NCBI GenBank assembly: GCA_022842205.1
Contig: JALHQA010000004.1
Location: 52,501-116,500 of the forward strand
Origin: Hyphomicrobiales bacterium
GTDB lineage: Bacteria; Pseudomonadota; Alphaproteobacteria; Rhizobiales; Methylopilaceae
Length of the DNA stretch: 64,000 bases
Direction of reading: 5' to 3'
Positions 12,816 to 53,529 of this stretch are shown in pieces. The translations under genes were made by a program, and so were the position numbers. Numbering within the stretch: position 1 is the first letter of the stretch; each line of letters starts with the position of its first letter. The notes under the pieces were generated by a model that saw only the letters and a list, made by a program, of their open reading frames with translations, had not been told where the DNA came from and did no database searches.

Positions 12816-12861
12816 TCAGGAGGATTTGCAGGGACTGGGAATCTCACCTCGGCCTGCGTGC

Positions 12862-12959
12862 CCGTCCCTTCGCCGGCATAACCCGGATCAGGTTCAAAGG
12901 GTCACCGCGTTGCCAAGTGGCGGGCGGTATCTCAGTCCCGTATCGGGACCCCCCTCGGT
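12862..12959 (-). promoter_or_regulatory. TPP (THI-element) riboswitch of thiC
   Basis: Read on the minus strand, the leader contains the THI core in order: a G-rich 5' segment, ACTGAGATACC, a variable hairpin, ACCCTTTGAACCTGATC, then GGTTATGCCGGCGAAGGGA. The thiamine-pyrimidine and pyrophosphate helices are both recognisable. About 80 bases separate it from the thiC start, enough for an expression platform that hides the GAGGAGG site. A small hairpin (ctcggc...gccgag type, 12954-12970) sits at its 5' edge. Thiamine pyrophosphate binding should switch thiC off. Confidence 0.93.
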
Positions 12960-13002
12960 TACACGCCGAGTTTTAGAGATAATACGGGGAGGGTCAATCG
13001 TT

Positions 13003-24713: not shown

Positions 24714-25110
24714 CAGGGTTCCCCAAAAACACGCGTTGGCTTTCGCGTTGAGGTCGCCCGTTCCGGACACGCGATGGAGACGCGCCGGGCGGTACTCGTC
24801 AACGCTGCCGGCCCGTACAGACCGGCGGCTCTTGTTCGCGCCGAAGGTGGAGCCGGGCCGTGGCAGCAAAAGCTGCTTCAGGCTCGAAATCCGCCAACGC
24901 TTGGAAGGGAATTCCCGTCCGCACGCCTCGGCAAAGAAGTAGTCTGCCTCTTCAGTGACCCCGACCGTTGGACCGGCCGGGAGAGACCAAAAAAGCCCTC
25001 TACGTCGTTGCTTTAAGCTGCGTCCGCCGGCAGAGCGCCGACTTAAACCCGGTTTGTCTTTCCGGTTACCGGTCTGCCCAGACGGGGCTTCCGTCTAGAC
25101 CGGCACGCAG
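24714..25110 (-). promoter_or_regulatory. Structured leader of ornithine decarboxylase (speF-motif candidate)
   Basis: About 400 bases upstream of the decarboxylase lack an independent gene but hold strong structure. At its 5' end, read on the minus strand, a two-step hairpin spans 25103-25069: outer stem CCGGTCT/AGACCGG and inner stem AGACGG/CCGTCT. Several more GC-rich hairpins follow, including one at 24863-24876. Alphaproteobacterial ornithine decarboxylase genes carry the conserved speF leader RNA, and position and size fit. I cannot align it to the model here. The upstream part to 25233 shows no gene. Confidence 0.5.
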
Positions 25111-25233
25111 CCACAGGCACGTGCGAAATTGGGCAGGCGCGACATAAGCAAAATGCAGCGCCGGTGCAAGTATTAGATTGTGATTATTTCGAGATGGCTG
25201 ACGCCGTTGCGCGAGAGTCACTCGCGCGCCCGC

Positions 25234-43752: not shown

Positions 43753-43827
43753 GGGCGATTAGCTCAGCGGGAGAGCACTTCCTTGACATGGAAGGGGTCA
43801 CAGGTTCAATCCCTGTATCGCCCACCA
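43753..43827 (+). tRNA. tRNA-Val (GAC anticodon)
   Basis: This is a 75-base tRNA with encoded CCA. The acceptor stem pairs GGGCGAT with ATCGCCC, discriminator A. The D arm contains AGCTCAGCGGGAGAGC, the anticodon loop is TTGACAT (anticodon GAC) on stem CTTCC/GGAAG, and the T arm is CAGGTTCAATCCCTG. No duplicated 3' end is seen downstream, so there is no sign of an integrated element. Confidence 0.96.
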
Positions 43828-48208: not shown

Positions 48209-49531
48209 CTAATTGACCCGCCCGGCGATGAACTCGACGACATCCCGGACCGTCTTGCGGTCCTGTCTGGATGCGGGACGATCGGCGATGGCCATCGGGA
48301 TTTCAGGCTGGACGCCGACGCCTTCCCAGAGCTTGCCCTCGGCATCGAGATAGATCTCGTTGGACATGCTGATGACCCAGCCGTTCGGCAGGGTCTTCCA
48401 GAGTTCGTCGGACAGCGAGCCGTCGGTCGTCTGGCCGATATGCGTCACATTCGGCAGCGCGCGCATGGCCAGGGCGAAAACCTCCGCGGCGCTGACCGTG
48501 TCCTTGCCCGTGACCAGCCAGACCGGGCCGGAATAGCGCGGCCCTTTCGCGGGCTGCACCACAATGGCCTGCGGTTTCGCCCCGGCGAAGTCGCCCGCGT
48601 ACTTACTATAGGCGATGACGGGCCTGTCGGTGAACCGGGCGGCGATCCGCCGCGCGTAGCTGTCGCGGCCGCCGTCGTTCATCGACACATCGACGATGAC
48701 GGCCCCGGCCTTTTTCAGCGCGCCGATGGCGCGGTCGAGCGCGGCGTCCAGCTCCGCGTCCTTCATCTCGTACATTGTCGGGATCTGGAGATAGCCGACG
48801 CCGTTCGGGAACAGGCCGTATTTCAGGTCGCCGGCGCGCTTCAGCGCGCGGCCCAGCGCCGCTTCCGCCGCCTTGTGGTTCCACGACCCGCTGACCGGCG
48901 ACGGGCCCGGCGGCTCGCGGCGCGGCCGGTTGTCGGTGGCGAGGATCAGTTCGTCATGGCCGTCGATTTCCGCTTCGACGCGGACATGGCTGTCGCCGAA
49001 CGGAAGCAGCGTTTCCTCCAGTATCGCAAACAGGCGTTCCTCGCCCGTCTTGTCCGTGACTTTGGTGCGCGCCGCCGCCGACAGCTTCGGCCAGTCGACG
49101 CCGCGCTGCTCGAAGAACGCATAGTGCCGGCTGAACATCGCGATCAGCGTCTCGAGCGCGGTGCGGGCGTCGGAGGCGAGGGGAGCGGCGCCGCAAGGGA
49201 CGGGCAGGCGCTCGAGGCGCTCGAACGTATAGACATAATCCGGGTCCTGCTGGCGCAGCTTGAGGACTGAATGGTCGCGCGACAGCGTAACGACATCCTT
49301 CGCCGCGATGCGCGGCGTCTCGCTCGCGGCTTTCGGGATGCAGAAGCCGGGGCCGACATCGAACCGCGCGACTTCGGCATTCTCGACCTTCCAGACCCAG
49401 CCATAGCCCTGCGACCGCCAGATGCCGTCATAGGGCCGCGCGGCGTCCGAATGGGCGGCGAGGGCGGGGGAGGAGACGATGGCGGCCAGCGCGGCGGCGA
49501 AGGTGGCGGCCGGCTTTGGCAGGCGGTTCAT
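48209..49531 (-). CDS. S41-family (C-terminal processing) peptidase-like exported protein
   Basis: This is a 440-residue exported protein with signal peptide MNRLPKPAATFAAALAAIVSSPALA. The N-terminal third is a beta domain. The rest is a tail-specific protease fold: VGYLQIPTMYEM, VIVDVSMNDGGRDSYARRIAARF, the Ser in GKDTVSAAEVFALAMRALP and Lys in SDELWKTLPNGWVIS. No PDZ domain is visible, so it resembles TSPc/interphotoreceptor retinoid-binding-like peptidases rather than CtpA. The start at 49531 is set by the signal peptide. Substrate unknown. Confidence 0.83.
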   Translation of the reverse strand: MNRLPKPAATFAAALAAIVSSPALAAHSDAARPYDGIWRSQGYGWVWKVENAEVARFDVGPGFCIPKAASETPRIAAKDVVTLSRDHSVLKLRQQDPDYVYTFERLERLPVPCGAAPLASDARTALETLIAMFSRHYAFFEQRGVDWPKLSAAARTKVTDKTGEERLFAILEETLLPFGDSHVRVEAEIDGHDELILATDNRPRREPPGPSPVSGSWNHKAAEAALGRALKRAGDLKYGLFPNGVGYLQIPTMYEMKDAELDAALDRAIGALKKAGAVIVDVSMNDGGRDSYARRIAARFTDRPVIAYSKYAGDFAGAKPQAIVVQPAKGPRYSGPVWLVTGKDTVSAAEVFALAMRALPNVTHIGQTTDGSLSDELWKTLPNGWVISMSNEIYLDAEGKLWEGVGVQPEIPMAIADRPASRQDRKTVRDVVEFIAGRVN

Positions 49532-49596
49532 GACGCAATTCTCCCGTTGGACGCCGCGCAATTCGGATGGTAGCCACATGCCCGGCGACTCATGCA

Positions 49597-49765
49597 ACCC
49601 TCATCCTGAGGAGGCGCGTGCGCCCGCCCCTCCCCTTGCGGGAGAGGCCGGCACATCCGCGCAGCGGACGGCCCGGCGAGGGGTTTGAGTATGCTGCGAT
49701 GGACCCCTCATCCCGCTCGCTCGCAAGCTCGCGAGTCGACCTTCTCCCACAAGGGGAGAAGGGGT
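49597..49765. repeat. Composite palindromic repeat (half type I plus paired type II)
   Basis: It begins with a half type I unit (CCTCATCCTGAGGAGG) and continues into a type II unit (CCCTCCCCTTGCGGGAGAGG ... CGAGGGG). After a short spacer it is met by an inverted type II unit ending CTTCTCCCACAAGGGGAGAAGG. The two type II halves form a long hairpin. There is no gene here. Confidence 0.85.
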
Positions 49766-49864
49766 CAGGCGCGCGAAATCGGCCCTCGTCTTTGAAGGCT
49801 CTGCGATCCAACGTCTGCCCTGTCTCCTTTCGCGAACCCGCAAACATGCGGTTCGCGTGGAGGG

Positions 49865-49979
49865 GCGCGCGGGACGCCGGGAGATTGACCGCTCCCTCGG
49901 CGGTTCGGTGAACGTGCAAAAGCACCGAACCAATTGTTCTACTCACCTCGGGGAAGCCGTCTCCCGGCATCCCGCGCGC
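49865..49979 (-). ncRNA. Candidate structured RNA or large imperfect palindrome, rod A
   Basis: Positions 49865-49884 pair with 49960-49979 over 20 positions. On the plus strand one pair is C-A; on the minus strand the same pair is G-U, so the helix is complete only in minus-strand RNA. Inside is a second stem, GGTTCGGTG (49902-49910) with CACCGAACC (49923-49931). The internal sequences between form a large bubble, giving a rod of about 115 bases. No known RNA consensus (RNase P, tmRNA, SRP, 6S) could be matched by eye. Confidence 0.35.
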
Positions 49980-49991
49980 GGTGTGTGAGGC

Positions 49992-50158
49992 TTGCTGCCG
50001 AGGGCCCCTGGAGGACAGTGGCTTGTTCTCCTCCATTGGCGGCCTCATCGACCTGCGTGTCCCGTTGGTACGGGTCCCACGTCAGGTCACCAAGGGAGGC
50101 CTCGCGCCCTCGCAGGAGGGAGCAGGACCATCGGCCTTGGGCCTCCGGCAGGGCTTGC
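49992..50158. ncRNA. Candidate structured RNA, rod B
   Basis: GCTGCCGAGGGCCC (49992-50005) largely pairs with GGGCCTCCGGCAG (50143-50155). Nested inside are GGCCTC with GAGGCC, GACCTG-CGTG with CACG-TCAGGTC, and the apical CCCGT-TGGT-ACGGG. The result is a single long rod with a central open region. It directly follows rod A, and both lie in an intergenic area without a credible ORF. Strand is undetermined. Confidence 0.35.
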
Positions 50159-50251
50159 GAACCCCAACCGGCCACCGCACTCCCGATCCACCCAAACGAC
50201 GCCTCGCGAGAGCGCCCTCCGTGACCGAAAGCACGCGCAGCAGAACACATC

Positions 50252-50267
50252 ATAGGAATAAAGTCAA
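50252..50267. repeat. 16-bp motif, second copy
   Basis: This is identical to 47755-47770 (ATAGGAATAAAGTCAA). Here it lies between the possible structured RNA and a type I repeat. In this copy GGAATA and TATTTCC flank the core as an approximate inverted pair. Confidence 0.7.
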
Positions 50268-50304
50268 GAACTATTTCCAGAGCCAGATGGCGCGGCGACT
50301 CCGG

Positions 50305-50416
50305 TCCTCATCCTGAGGAGCGATGCGCAGCATCGCATCTCGAAGGATGAGCGGCGGCCGCCCGCTCCTGCGGCCCATCCTTCGAGACCGGCCGTCGGCC
50401 CTCCTCAGGATGAGGA
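50305..50416. repeat. Palindromic intergenic repeat, type I
   Basis: It starts TCCTCATCCTGAGGAGCG and ends CTCCTCAGGATGAGGA, a near-perfect terminal inverted repeat. Internal pairs ATCTCGAAGGATGAG and CATCCTTCGAGAC make it a two-level hairpin of 112 bases. Confidence 0.88.
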
Positions 50417-50440
50417 TTGAATGTGCTGCGGAAAGATTCT

Positions 50441-50497
50441 CCTCTCCCCTTGTGGGAGAGGTCGGCACGCCGCGCAGCGGCGGCCGGGCGAGGGGTC
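50441..50497. repeat. Palindromic repeat, type II, abutting the DUF559 start codon
   Basis: The unit runs from CCTCTCCCCTTGTGGGAGAGG to CCGGGCGAGGGG. Its final GAGGGG lies six bases before the ATG at 50501 and reads as a Shine-Dalgarno sequence. Confidence 0.88.
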
Positions 50498-50500
50498 CAC

Positions 50501-50866
50501 ATGCCCGATGCACATCATCGCAAGGTCAGCCGTGTTCAGCGCAGCCGCGCAAAAACCATGCGGCGGGAGCCGACCGACGCGGAAAAGAAGATGTGGCGTC
50601 TGCTTCGCGGCTCCGAATTCGCGCAGCTGAAATTCCGCCGTCAGGAACCCATGGGTCCGTACATACTCGATTTCGTCTGTTTCGCGTCAAAGCTCGTGAT
50701 CGAGGTCGATGGCGGACAGCACGCGGAAAGCCCCCACGATGCGGCACGGGATGCCTGGCTCGCTGCGAACGGTCTGACGATCGTCCGCTACTGGAACCAC
50801 GATGTGCTGACAAACCCGGAGGGGGTGGCAACCGATCTGGCGGCGCGTCTTGGCATCTCGCTGTGA
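50501..50866 (+). CDS. DUF559 (Vsr-like endonuclease fold) protein
   Basis: This is a 121-residue protein with the DUF559 domain: REPTDAEKKMWRLLRGSEFAQLKFRRQEPMGPYILDFVCFASKLVIEVDGGQHA. The D...E-x-D-G-x-Q pattern (ILDFVC, VIEVDGGQH) is that of the PD-(D/E)XK/very-short-patch-repair nuclease fold, so catalytic acids are present. I start at MPDAHHRKVSRV directly after a type II repeat; the longer frame runs through the repeat. Paired type II repeats lie 24 bases downstream. Its cellular role is unknown; domain similarity suggests DNA cleavage or binding. Confidence 0.85.
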   Translation: MPDAHHRKVSRVQRSRAKTMRREPTDAEKKMWRLLRGSEFAQLKFRRQEPMGPYILDFVCFASKLVIEVDGGQHAESPHDAARDAWLAANGLTIVRYWNHDVLTNPEGVATDLAARLGISL

Positions 50867-51606: not shown

Positions 51607-53529
51607 ATGCCTTGGAGTGACGGGCTCGATCAAGCGTCGCCAGCTTTTGCAATTGCGGCCTCCGCCAACAACCGAATTCGCGTTTTAGCGGGTCCGGGGG
51701 CAGGGAAATCTTTTGCCATGAAGCGGCGGGTTGCTCGTTTGCTCGAAGCTGACGGAGTCGCGCCCGACTCAGTACTCGCCGTCACTTTTACTAGGGTTGC
51801 TGCGGAAGACTTACATCGCGAGCTTGTGTCACTACAAATTGAAGGCGCCGATGTTCTGGAAGGGCGAACGCTTCATAGCCTCGCGATGAAAATTCTGATG
51901 CGTAACCATGTGATGCAAGCCCTTGGTAGGACGCCGCGGCCATTGAACGTTTTTGAAGTCCAGCCGCTCTTGCAAGACTTAAGCGGCGCGCATGGAAACA
52001 AAACTCAGCGAAAGAGAATGCTCGAAGCTTACGTGGCGGCTTGGGCTCAGGTCCAAAGCCAACAGCCGCAGCCGGCTCAAACCCCTGCGCAGCAAGCGTT
52101 TGCCGCTGATCTCTTGAACTGGCTTCGTTTTCACCAAGCTATGCATATCGGCGAAGTCATACCACAGCTTTATGAGTACCTTCGTTTGAATCCCGGCTGC
52201 GCAGAGCGGGGAGAGTTCTCTCACATTCTGATTGACGAGTATCAGGACCTCAATCGTGTGGAACAGGAGGTCCTTAATCTTCTAGGGAACCAAGGAGCCG
52301 TTTGCATTATTGGCGACGATGACCAATCGATTTACAGTTTTAAGTATGCACATCCCGCAGGAGTGCGCGATTGGGCTGACATCAACGGGGCTGAAAGCCA
52401 TGCAATAGCCGACTGTCGGAGATGTCCGACAACGGTCGTTCGTATGGCCAATGCGCTTATCTCGCGCAATCAAGATCGCCAGCCGCGTCAGATGTCAGAG
52501 CTTCCGCAGAATGGTCCCGGCGATGTCCAAATTCGGCAATACGATACCGCAGAACTGGAAGCGGACGCTGTAGCCCAAAAAATATCGCAACTAGTGCAGG
52601 CAGGCGTAGCGCCAGGCGATATCATTGTTTTGGCTCAGCGGAGAACATTCGGCACTCCAGTTTTCGAGCGCTTAAGAGATCTTGGCGTGCCAACAAAGTC
52701 TTACTATGCGGAAGCCGCGCTCAGCACGCGTGACGCCCAGGAGCGGTTTGCGATGTTGAAGCTATACCTCAATCGTGAGGATCGCGTAGCATTAAGATGG
52801 CTCCTAGGCTGTACGCATAATCAATGGTATTCGAATCCCTATGCGCGAGTTATGGCACACTGCCACGAAACGGGGATGTCGCCTTGGCAGACGCTTGAAG
52901 CAATATCGAGCGGAGATTTGACGATCAGATTTACTACGCCGCTAGTCACAAGGTTCGGTGAGATCGTTGCGGAGCTTGATGTTTTGCAGCAGTCGGCGGA
53001 CGTAGAGGGCTTCGTAAATACGTGGCTACCAACCCCAGCAAATTACGATCTGCTGGCGGATGCAGTATTTCAATGCCAAGAGGGGTGCGGCACTGTCGAA
53101 GAGTTATATGAGGAGCTGTACGCAGCTATTACAGAGCCTGATGTGCCGTTAGAGGTCACCGAAGTTAGAGTGATGAGTTTTCATAAAAGCAAGGGCTTGA
53201 GTTCGCCTTATGTTTTTATCGTGGGGTGTGTGGAGGGGCTTCATCCTTCCCATCCAGATGAAGACTTCACGCCTGCCGAAGCGGCTGCAAAGTTGGAGGA
53301 GGATAGGCGCTTATTCTATGTTGGTATTACGCGTGTAAAAGCCGACCCCCACAATGGGAAGCCGGGTTATCTTGCCATTACTTATCCTCGAACGATGGAA
53401 ACCCGGCATGCAATGAGAAGCCAAATAAGGCCGGTTTCGCGCAGCTTCGGCACTGCGCATCTACAAGCGAGTAGGTTTTTGGGGGAGATGGCACCTGCCG
53501 CTCCGCAGCCACTGGTCGGTCCCCTCTGA
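51607..53529 (+). CDS. UvrD/Rep-family (SF1A) DNA helicase-like protein
   Basis: This is a 640-residue superfamily 1 helicase with all core motifs: Walker A LAGPGAGKSFAMKRR, Ia VTFTRVAAEDL, II ILIDEYQDLNRVEQ, III IIGDDDQSIYSFKYAHP, V VMSFHKSKGLSSPYVFIVG, VI RRLFYVGITRVKAD. It lacks the extra 2B insertion length and C-terminal tail of housekeeping UvrD (about 720-780). Codons are visibly more A/T-rich than in neighbouring genes, and it sits in the repeat-rich segment, so horizontal acquisition is likely. No nuclease partner is adjacent. It may act in repair, plasmid conflict or defence; this is undecided. Confidence 0.88.
   Translation: MPWSDGLDQASPAFAIAASANNRIRVLAGPGAGKSFAMKRRVARLLEADGVAPDSVLAVTFTRVAAEDLHRELVSLQIEGADVLEGRTLHSLAMKILMRNHVMQALGRTPRPLNVFEVQPLLQDLSGAHGNKTQRKRMLEAYVAAWAQVQSQQPQPAQTPAQQAFAADLLNWLRFHQAMHIGEVIPQLYEYLRLNPGCAERGEFSHILIDEYQDLNRVEQEVLNLLGNQGAVCIIGDDDQSIYSFKYAHPAGVRDWADINGAESHAIADCRRCPTTVVRMANALISRNQDRQPRQMSELPQNGPGDVQIRQYDTAELEADAVAQKISQLVQAGVAPGDIIVLAQRRTFGTPVFERLRDLGVPTKSYYAEAALSTRDAQERFAMLKLYLNREDRVALRWLLGCTHNQWYSNPYARVMAHCHETGMSPWQTLEAISSGDLTIRFTTPLVTRFGEIVAELDVLQQSADVEGFVNTWLPTPANYDLLADAVFQCQEGCGTVEELYEELYAAITEPDVPLEVTEVRVMSFHKSKGLSSPYVFIVGCVEGLHPSHPDEDFTPAEAAAKLEEDRRLFYVGITRVKADPHNGKPGYLAITYPRTMETRHAMRSQIRPVSRSFGTAHLQASRFLGEMAPAAPQPLVGPL

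Follow-up and report, generated by a model that had tools for sequence, protein, structure and literature searches.

A multicopy, multi-domain element of Hyphomicrobiales with the features of a structured non-coding RNA

Described RNAs and repeats closest to the element

Bacteria have few large structured non-coding RNAs. The three ornate RNAs with solved structures, GOLLD, ROOL and OLE, are reported to form RNA-only assemblies (PMC12286853). The element described here lies on the minus strand, from 50267 to 49768, of a 64,000-nucleotide window (the whole stretch of DNA analysed) from a Hyphomicrobiales bacterium. It resembles these RNAs in size class, in its many domains, in its conserved loops and in the absence of known coding capacity, and by inference a role as scaffold or oligomer is conceivable for it too. 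Unlike them, it is dispersed in many copies per genome, a search pattern built on its hairpin P2b had no match in viral contigs, and their Rfam models did not match it at gathering score or at E ≤ 5 over 49500-50520. The element is nearest to the large ornate RNAs in kind and, judged by the Rfam models, not a member of GOLLD, ROOL or OLE.

Multicopy non-coding elements are also described from Bradyrhizobium, very probably the genus to which the g37 carriers treated below belong. The literature consulted reports small RNAs in two to four copies plus short REPs (PMC5082802, PMC4842269); the copy numbers refer to BjsR5, BjsR6, BjsR7 and BjsR10, and the REP consensus sequences (Br-REP1 and Br-REP2) measure 20 and about 40 nt (PMC5082802). 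An overlap of our element with a BjsR RNA or a Br-REP is not excluded. A published description of the element itself was not found in the open-licence PMC literature. MITEs and REPs are likewise intergenic, multicopy and partly palindromic, whereas no target-site duplication or consistent terminal inverted repeat was found for the element, which carries its own promoter-like block and displays covariation at the RNA level.

The 6S RNA shares with the element a long rod with bulges. The B. japonicum 6S RNA is given as 160 nt (PMC5082802), while the element is about three times longer, multi-domain and multicopy. A likeness to 6S RNA had been remarked on in a preliminary description of the locus; it found no support, since the Rfam searches returned no 6S match. 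At gathering score, Rfam 15 matched neither the element, with the whole window searched, nor its homologues at six other loci. A relaxed search (E 5, 49500-50520) gave four sub-threshold matches, the best being a microRNA model with 28.8 bits against a threshold of 168 bits. Membership of 6S RNA or another Rfam family was rejected on these grounds.

Architecture, covariation and promoter-like block

The preliminary description had reported two adjacent long rods in a gene-free region and proposed an uncharacterised structured RNA. Both rods are real; they are not two neighbours, however, and belong to one larger RNA reaching to about 50267 and 49768. The element starts with the promoter-like block (50239-50267, minus strand), followed by a predicted folded RNA of about 470 nt (49768-50238, minus strand) that was delimited by the alignment of copies from the window's own genus and by the fold of 49785-50245. 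When the own-genus copies were aligned with their flanks, similarity mostly began at TTGAC and ended at TTTCGCGCG, and several copies had in common a short AT-rich stretch just 5' of TTGAC. The 5' end of the RNA is predicted at about 50232-50238, and conservation stops at TTTCGCGCGCC.

All domains are on the minus strand. Hairpin P1 (50179-50232) was recognized in the folds of own-genus copies and at the equal position of the Bradyrhizobium-type consensus. The multibranched domain P2 (49978-50180) is closed by GCGGTG/CACCGC, its Bradyrhizobium-type counterpart by GCGGUGG/CCAUUGC, and it contains the second rod of the preliminary description (rod B), whose nested helices were recovered in the fold of 49980-50158. 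Within P2 lies the hairpin P2b, GGAGGnnAnnAA..CCTCC (50010-50034), which served as search pattern and whose pairs were counted for covariation; it is followed by AGCAAGCC (within 49978-49998), also part of the search motif. Domain P3 (49865-49979) is the first rod (rod A). Its 20-nt arms (49960-49979 and 49865-49884) are 75 nt apart and 95% complementary, with an apical stem at 49902-49931. The 20-position helix claimed for this rod holds: the sole mismatch on the plus strand, C-A, becomes G-U in a minus-strand RNA. Hairpin P4 (49824-49865) follows directly after the rod in the folds and has a counterpart in the Bradyrhizobium-type consensus (80.7% of cells paired). Copy folds further contain the 3' hairpin P6 (49783-49798) and, at the end of the conserved block, the closing strand TTTCGCGCG (within 49768-49798), which is able to pair with GCGCG near 50234-50238. 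This helix, P0, is the least supported; its Bradyrhizobium-type counterpart is paired in 75% of cells.

The P1 hairpin, P2 multibranch, P3 rod and 3' hairpins were common to the individual copy folds, and the closing helix P0 appeared in many. Domain lengths differ among copies, and P3 has an extra arm in some. The domain order of the Bradyrhizobium-type consensus matches, with P1, P2 and P3 followed by small hairpins.

The fold of 49785-50245 on the minus strand had a z-score of -4.42 and was reached by 0 of 100 shuffles. For 49865-50158, none of 200 shuffles reached the real fold (z -4.95 on the plus and -5.76 on the minus strand). Covariation was assessed in three alignments, and in each of them changes on both sides of pairs exceeded the shuffled expectation. 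The alignment of 32 cross-family sequences had changes on both sides in 12 of its 26 pairs (7.7 ± 1.3 after shuffling; 1 of 500 shuffles reached 12), with a covariation score of 0.339 against 0.189 in shuffled and at most 0.089 in slid controls. The number of further pair types in this alignment was unremarkable, being equalled by 41 of 500 shuffles. The 26 own-genus copies had both sides changed in 12 of 32 pairs (5.8 ± 1.1 shuffled; score 0.276 versus 0.141). The third alignment, 28 nearly full-length Bradyrhizobium-type copies with 144 pairs in 20 helices, gave 33 such pairs against 19.7 ± 2.3, with 150 changed cells against 50.9 and a score of 0.159 against 0.106. Slid controls scored far below the real covariation. 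The structures were derived from the very alignments used for counting, and shuffling leaves the relatedness of the sequences in place. Loops were conserved as well as stems.

The region indeed appears free of genes, as had been claimed. Most length differences between copies are out of frame: 306 of 366 indels in the own genus (23 rows) and 340 of 379 in the Bradyrhizobium-type copies (28 rows) were not multiples of three, scored row by row against the first row so that shared indels were counted repeatedly. A protein-coding gene was rejected because the reading frame is not kept between copies. The compensatory changes in its helices fulfil one criterion of a structured non-coding RNA, whose transcription is inferred. 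An uncharacterised structured RNA, as first proposed, remains the best reading, given the absence of an Rfam family and compensatory change above both shuffled and slid controls.

In the promoter-like block of the window copy, the -35 sequence TTGACT (50262-50267) is separated by a 17-nt spacer from a weak -10 region, TCTGCT, at about 50239-50244. Generic promoter and terminator scans found neither a promoter nor a terminator for this copy. The support comes from the comparison of copies: TTGAC was present in 23 of 25 aligned own-genus copies, TGn immediately 5' of the -10 (TG fifteen bases past TTGAC) in all 25, and the form TGnTACAC in eight. The minus strand was assigned to the RNA from the orientation of this block, together with the C-A to G-U change in rod A. 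The 25 copies fall into three spacer types, TTATTCCTA (15 copies), AATATTCCTA (4) and AGGATTATG (6), and most copies of the third type carry a palindrome AATCCTTG..CAAGGATT; on sequence grounds, this suggests paralogues under different control. Of the 30 Bradyrhizobium-type loci (L251-L280), 24 carry a motif like CCCGACGGGCAAAT (up to two mismatches) at a distance of 26-134 nt before the aligned start of the RNA, and in 12 of the 30 it occurs paired, 24 nt apart. A shared operator is possible.

We regard it as probable that the two rods belong, as domains P2 and P3, to a single copy from a dispersed family of highly structured Hyphomicrobiales RNA genes of about 390-560 nt, whose transcription and action in trans are inferred. 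The computations as such establish that the element is multicopy, has homologues across families, has undergone compensatory changes, is non-coding, possesses its own promoter-like block and has homogenised copies at two own-genus sites.

Copies, distribution and concerted evolution

Searching the genome that contains the window (G000) at the DNA level returned 15 matches. They represent 14 distinct places, and five extend over almost the entire query with identities of 88-100%. A model of rod A from 26 own-genus copies (R1) was run on a family set of 18 genomes and located the element at 13 places in G000 and, among its sisters, at 13 in G002 (two of them fragments at contig ends) and 3 in G003. 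It found no match in the sister genome G001 or in the other 14 genomes; a second model, R2, added weak matches within the family. The uneven copy number and the absence from G001 argue against an essential role. RNA pieces were observed at the ends of contigs C6, C7, C9, C11 and C13 of G002, C5, C14 and C36 of G003 and C14 of G000. As the repeat breaks draft assemblies and copies come to lie at contig ends, copy numbers are underestimated.

The region of the window copy differs widely between sister species. Among the window ORFs that were compared with G001 and G003 by tblastn, those adjacent to the RNA or surrounding it (48.2-53.5 kb) had no counterpart in either genome. ORFs at 42-46 kb and from 53.6 kb onwards were matched in both, and in G003 an ORF at 47.4-47.7 kb was matched as well. 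A separate palindromic repeat lies at about 50306-50415, just upstream of the RNA promoter, and has many matching places in the sister genomes; in G001 its matches were present and a copy of the RNA was not found. The window also encodes a DUF559 protein (50417-50866) and a UvrD-type helicase (51607-53529) with a GajB-like PADLOC match (1.1e-47). Rfam matches elsewhere in the window comprise a TPP riboswitch (12848-12965, minus), a tRNA (43753-43824, plus), an ar45 sRNA (24991-25134, minus) and a speF leader (24843-24982, minus).

Presence within the order is wide but patchy. Applied to 397 genomes of the order, R1 identified one carrier outside the genus (G143), whose DNA as query led to two further genomes among 101. 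A degenerate pattern of P2b plus AGCARGCC was run on 84,980 species genomes and retrieved 32 genome stretches, all Hyphomicrobiales by title (Ancylobacter 15, Bosea sp. 117 4, one Lake Erken MAG 4, Rhizobiaceae bacterium CPCC 101076 3, others 6). Homologues occur in Ancylobacter, Bosea, Lutibaculum and a Bradyrhizobium-type genus. R2 matched all 20 named genomes with one to eight matches each (eight in the Lake Erken MAG), as expected since these had been picked by the P2b pattern and many of the sequences had trained R2. In L102, L111, L112, L099 and L128, extra sequence, apparently a hairpin, was seen between P2 and P3.

On the 397 order genomes, R2 gave matches in 28 at E ≤ 1e-3, about half of them weak. 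This tally includes weak matches (E 1.8e-9 to 6e-4) that were not taken as members, namely those in genus g2 (G006, G008-G012, G015, G016) and in G019, G186, G253, G341, G352 and G374. The match in G012 (L143) resembles a reduced member by eye and was found by a third model, R3, with E 1.3e-5. G245 was weak with R2 (3.4e-7), yet was included in the R3 alignment. The training set of R3 consisted of 25 sequences, all from family f35: Bradyrhizobium-type copies and two near relatives, without any own-genus sequence; some of these had first been found with R2. The model nevertheless finds G000 (4.0e-11) and G002 (1.9e-11), and matched 22 of the 397 order genomes, four of them weakly.

The Bradyrhizobium-type genus (g37) is very probably Bradyrhizobium itself. 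With the DNA of a copy from one of its genomes (G386) as query, 33 of its 36 genomes were matched, one of them once and each of the other 32 between 8 and 25 times; these matches are pieces and not always whole copies. One weak match fell outside the genus. G386 alone has the element at no fewer than 13 distinct places.

Outside the order, no match except the own genome was obtained with R2 in 385 genomes of the class or with R3 in 142. R2 is insensitive to Bradyrhizobium-type members: G051 gave none with R2 and 17 matches with the G386 DNA. The class survey with R2 is consequently weak, and R3 on 142 genomes repairs this only partly. Restriction to Hyphomicrobiales is likely, not proved, both searches being insensitive. 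The numbers of copies in a genome and of genomes in a group are minimum values, as only 6-11 candidates were scored per genome in the large searches, 24 in the R3 class search and 142-150 in the R1 family and R2 named-genome searches.

At two sites shared within the own genus, the flanks are 82% identical over the 1.1 kb adjoining the RNA and 74% over 8.3 kb, respectively. The RNAs at these shared sites are 65.1% and 66.9% identical, compared with 85.0-94.0% for the best mates within a genome. Judged from these identities, the copies at the two sites have evolved in concert, most simply by gene conversion. The evidence from three Bradyrhizobium-type pairs, with ten copies per genome compared, was mixed. 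Each pair had at least one genome-mate closer than the shared-site partner, and for G440_L231 the shared-site partner (87.8% identical) exceeded the best mate in G440 (83.2%).

The main rival to a host RNA gene is a non-autonomous mobile element of the selfish kind, which would use its folded RNA to spread itself, for instance by RNA-mediated or trans-mobilised transfer, and not to serve the host. The many copies per genome fit such an element, as do the position of copies in regions variable between species and the patchy presence, with R1 matching 3 of the 18 family-set genomes and missing the sister G001, though R2 adds weak matches in the family. The hallmarks of transposition that were tested point the other way. 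No target-site duplication was detected in 23 own-genus copies, where the shared flank word averaged 4.04 against 3.71 ± 0.41 in shuffled pairs, a mean reached by 23% of 500 shuffles. Nor did these copies have a consistent terminal inverted repeat: without a control, inverted words measured 4-7 nt in 21 copies and 9 in one and were missing from one, the true ends being only inferred. A MITE, as a non-autonomous DNA transposon, was rejected on these two tests. The multicopy transposable palindrome that the preliminary description had named as a refuting outcome is borne out as to copy number and not as to the transposon hallmarks tested. Furthermore, carriage by phages or plasmids was rejected for the window element, which had no match in either. 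The P2b pattern was absent from viral contigs, in a search that did not cover the Bradyrhizobium-type RNA, and the G386 element had one partial plasmid match (29% of the query) on a plasmid of Bradyrhizobium sp. Ash2021. With copies also retained at shared sites between species, we hold a selfish element to be unlikely.

Variable DNA upstream of the RNA genes and proposed roles

A further proposal, compatible with a host RNA, is that these genes mark or create preferred upstream slots for accessory genes, anti-phage genes among them, as tRNA genes do for integrative elements. At all seven assessable shared sites, the upstream DNA was unshared in at least one genome and the downstream DNA was kept. 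Variable DNA lay on the same side of the RNA gene at different sites, which satisfies one criterion for a tRNA-like integration hotspot in a small sample. Six sites are of Bradyrhizobium type (30 loci in three genomes of one genus) and one is an own-genus pair, in which only the downstream side is shared; the pair G000_C1a/G002_C13 was left out because the contig ends at the RNA. Measured from 150 nt outside the aligned RNA, four of the six Bradyrhizobium-type sites have unshared upstream DNA of 0.6-6.4 kb in both genomes. At one other, G440 carries 4.4 kb that is absent from G386 and G422, and the remaining one yielded no shared upstream DNA in the 7 kb compared. On the downstream side, five sites have a common flank that sets in no more than 200 nt from this margin, and at the sixth it sets in at 1.3-2.0 kb. 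The opposite polarity, with upstream DNA kept and downstream DNA unshared, was looked for among the Bradyrhizobium-type sites and not found, except that L253 and L279 share their upstream flanks at a place where the downstream side is cut off by a contig end.

The upstream cargo includes defence genes. One shared site has Gabija in G386 (GajA E 0, GajB 2.9e-284) and ShosA in G440 (2.2e-99). At this RNA site in the two Bradyrhizobium-type genomes, L245:4384-9377 holds GajA and GajB plus a Tle1-like phospholipase, and L246:7392-8294 holds ShosA. In PADLOC searches at E ≤ 1e-30, with ORFs called by a simple script, GajA, ShosA, a DNA methyltransferase and a reverse transcriptase were among the matches of the 104 upstream ORFs (25 of 27 families listed). 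None of 92 downstream ORFs matched, and in ten control stretches of G386 3 of 126 ORFs did, all RtcR-like activators. The reverse transcriptase gene (L264:9369-10847, minus; PADLOC RT 2.1e-61), which lies in cargo upstream of a single Bradyrhizobium-type copy, may be of the ordinary group II intron type.

Several points weaken the slot proposal. The numbers are small, and a single genus, with three genomes, supplied six of the seven sites. Rearrangement is possible for L252/L271 and the own-genus pair, neither of which showed any shared upstream DNA, and at the L253/L261/L279 site the upstream flank is kept in two of three genomes. Much of the upstream DNA is generic metabolism, which makes the link to defence a lead and not a result. 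Far upstream there is no forward copy of the promoter motif: none was found beyond 134 nt in the upstream 7 kb of the 30 loci, and only three reverse matches (up to two mismatches) occurred, at -160, -6683 and -55. On this evidence the slot function is doubtful. More speculative again is a combined proposal, in which the element would be a new class of large multi-domain RNA, concerted across the order, and its genes would be directional slots in the chromosome. Accessory cargo, anti-phage systems such as Gabija and ShosA included, would be exchanged immediately upstream of the RNA promoter with the downstream side left fixed, and the RNA or an RNP would take part in the exchange or protect it. 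A palindromic DNA repeat of REP, BIME or MITE type without RNA function, which the multicopy, intergenic position among local palindromic repeats might bring to mind, is very improbable for an element far longer than REPs and multi-domain, with a promoter-like block aligned in 25 copies, conserved loops as well as stems, compensatory changes and neither target-site duplication nor consistent terminal inverted repeat.

We therefore return to the dispersed RNA gene as the preferred reading. Its RNA would be transcribed from the minus strand, each copy independently, as inferred from the promoter-like blocks. It may be a stable structural RNA that works in trans, most likely by forming the scaffold of an RNP or a homo-oligomer. 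The retention of several copies, made partly uniform by gene conversion, would serve dosage or reflect control by different promoter subtypes.

The element matches no Rfam 15 family, and culturable soil bacteria, very probably Bradyrhizobium among them, carry many copies of it, which makes work on its expression, deletion and structure feasible. At some sites it evolves in concert, as rRNA genes do, and its one-sided association with variable DNA suggests a connection between an RNA gene and the plasticity of genomes that can be put to the test.
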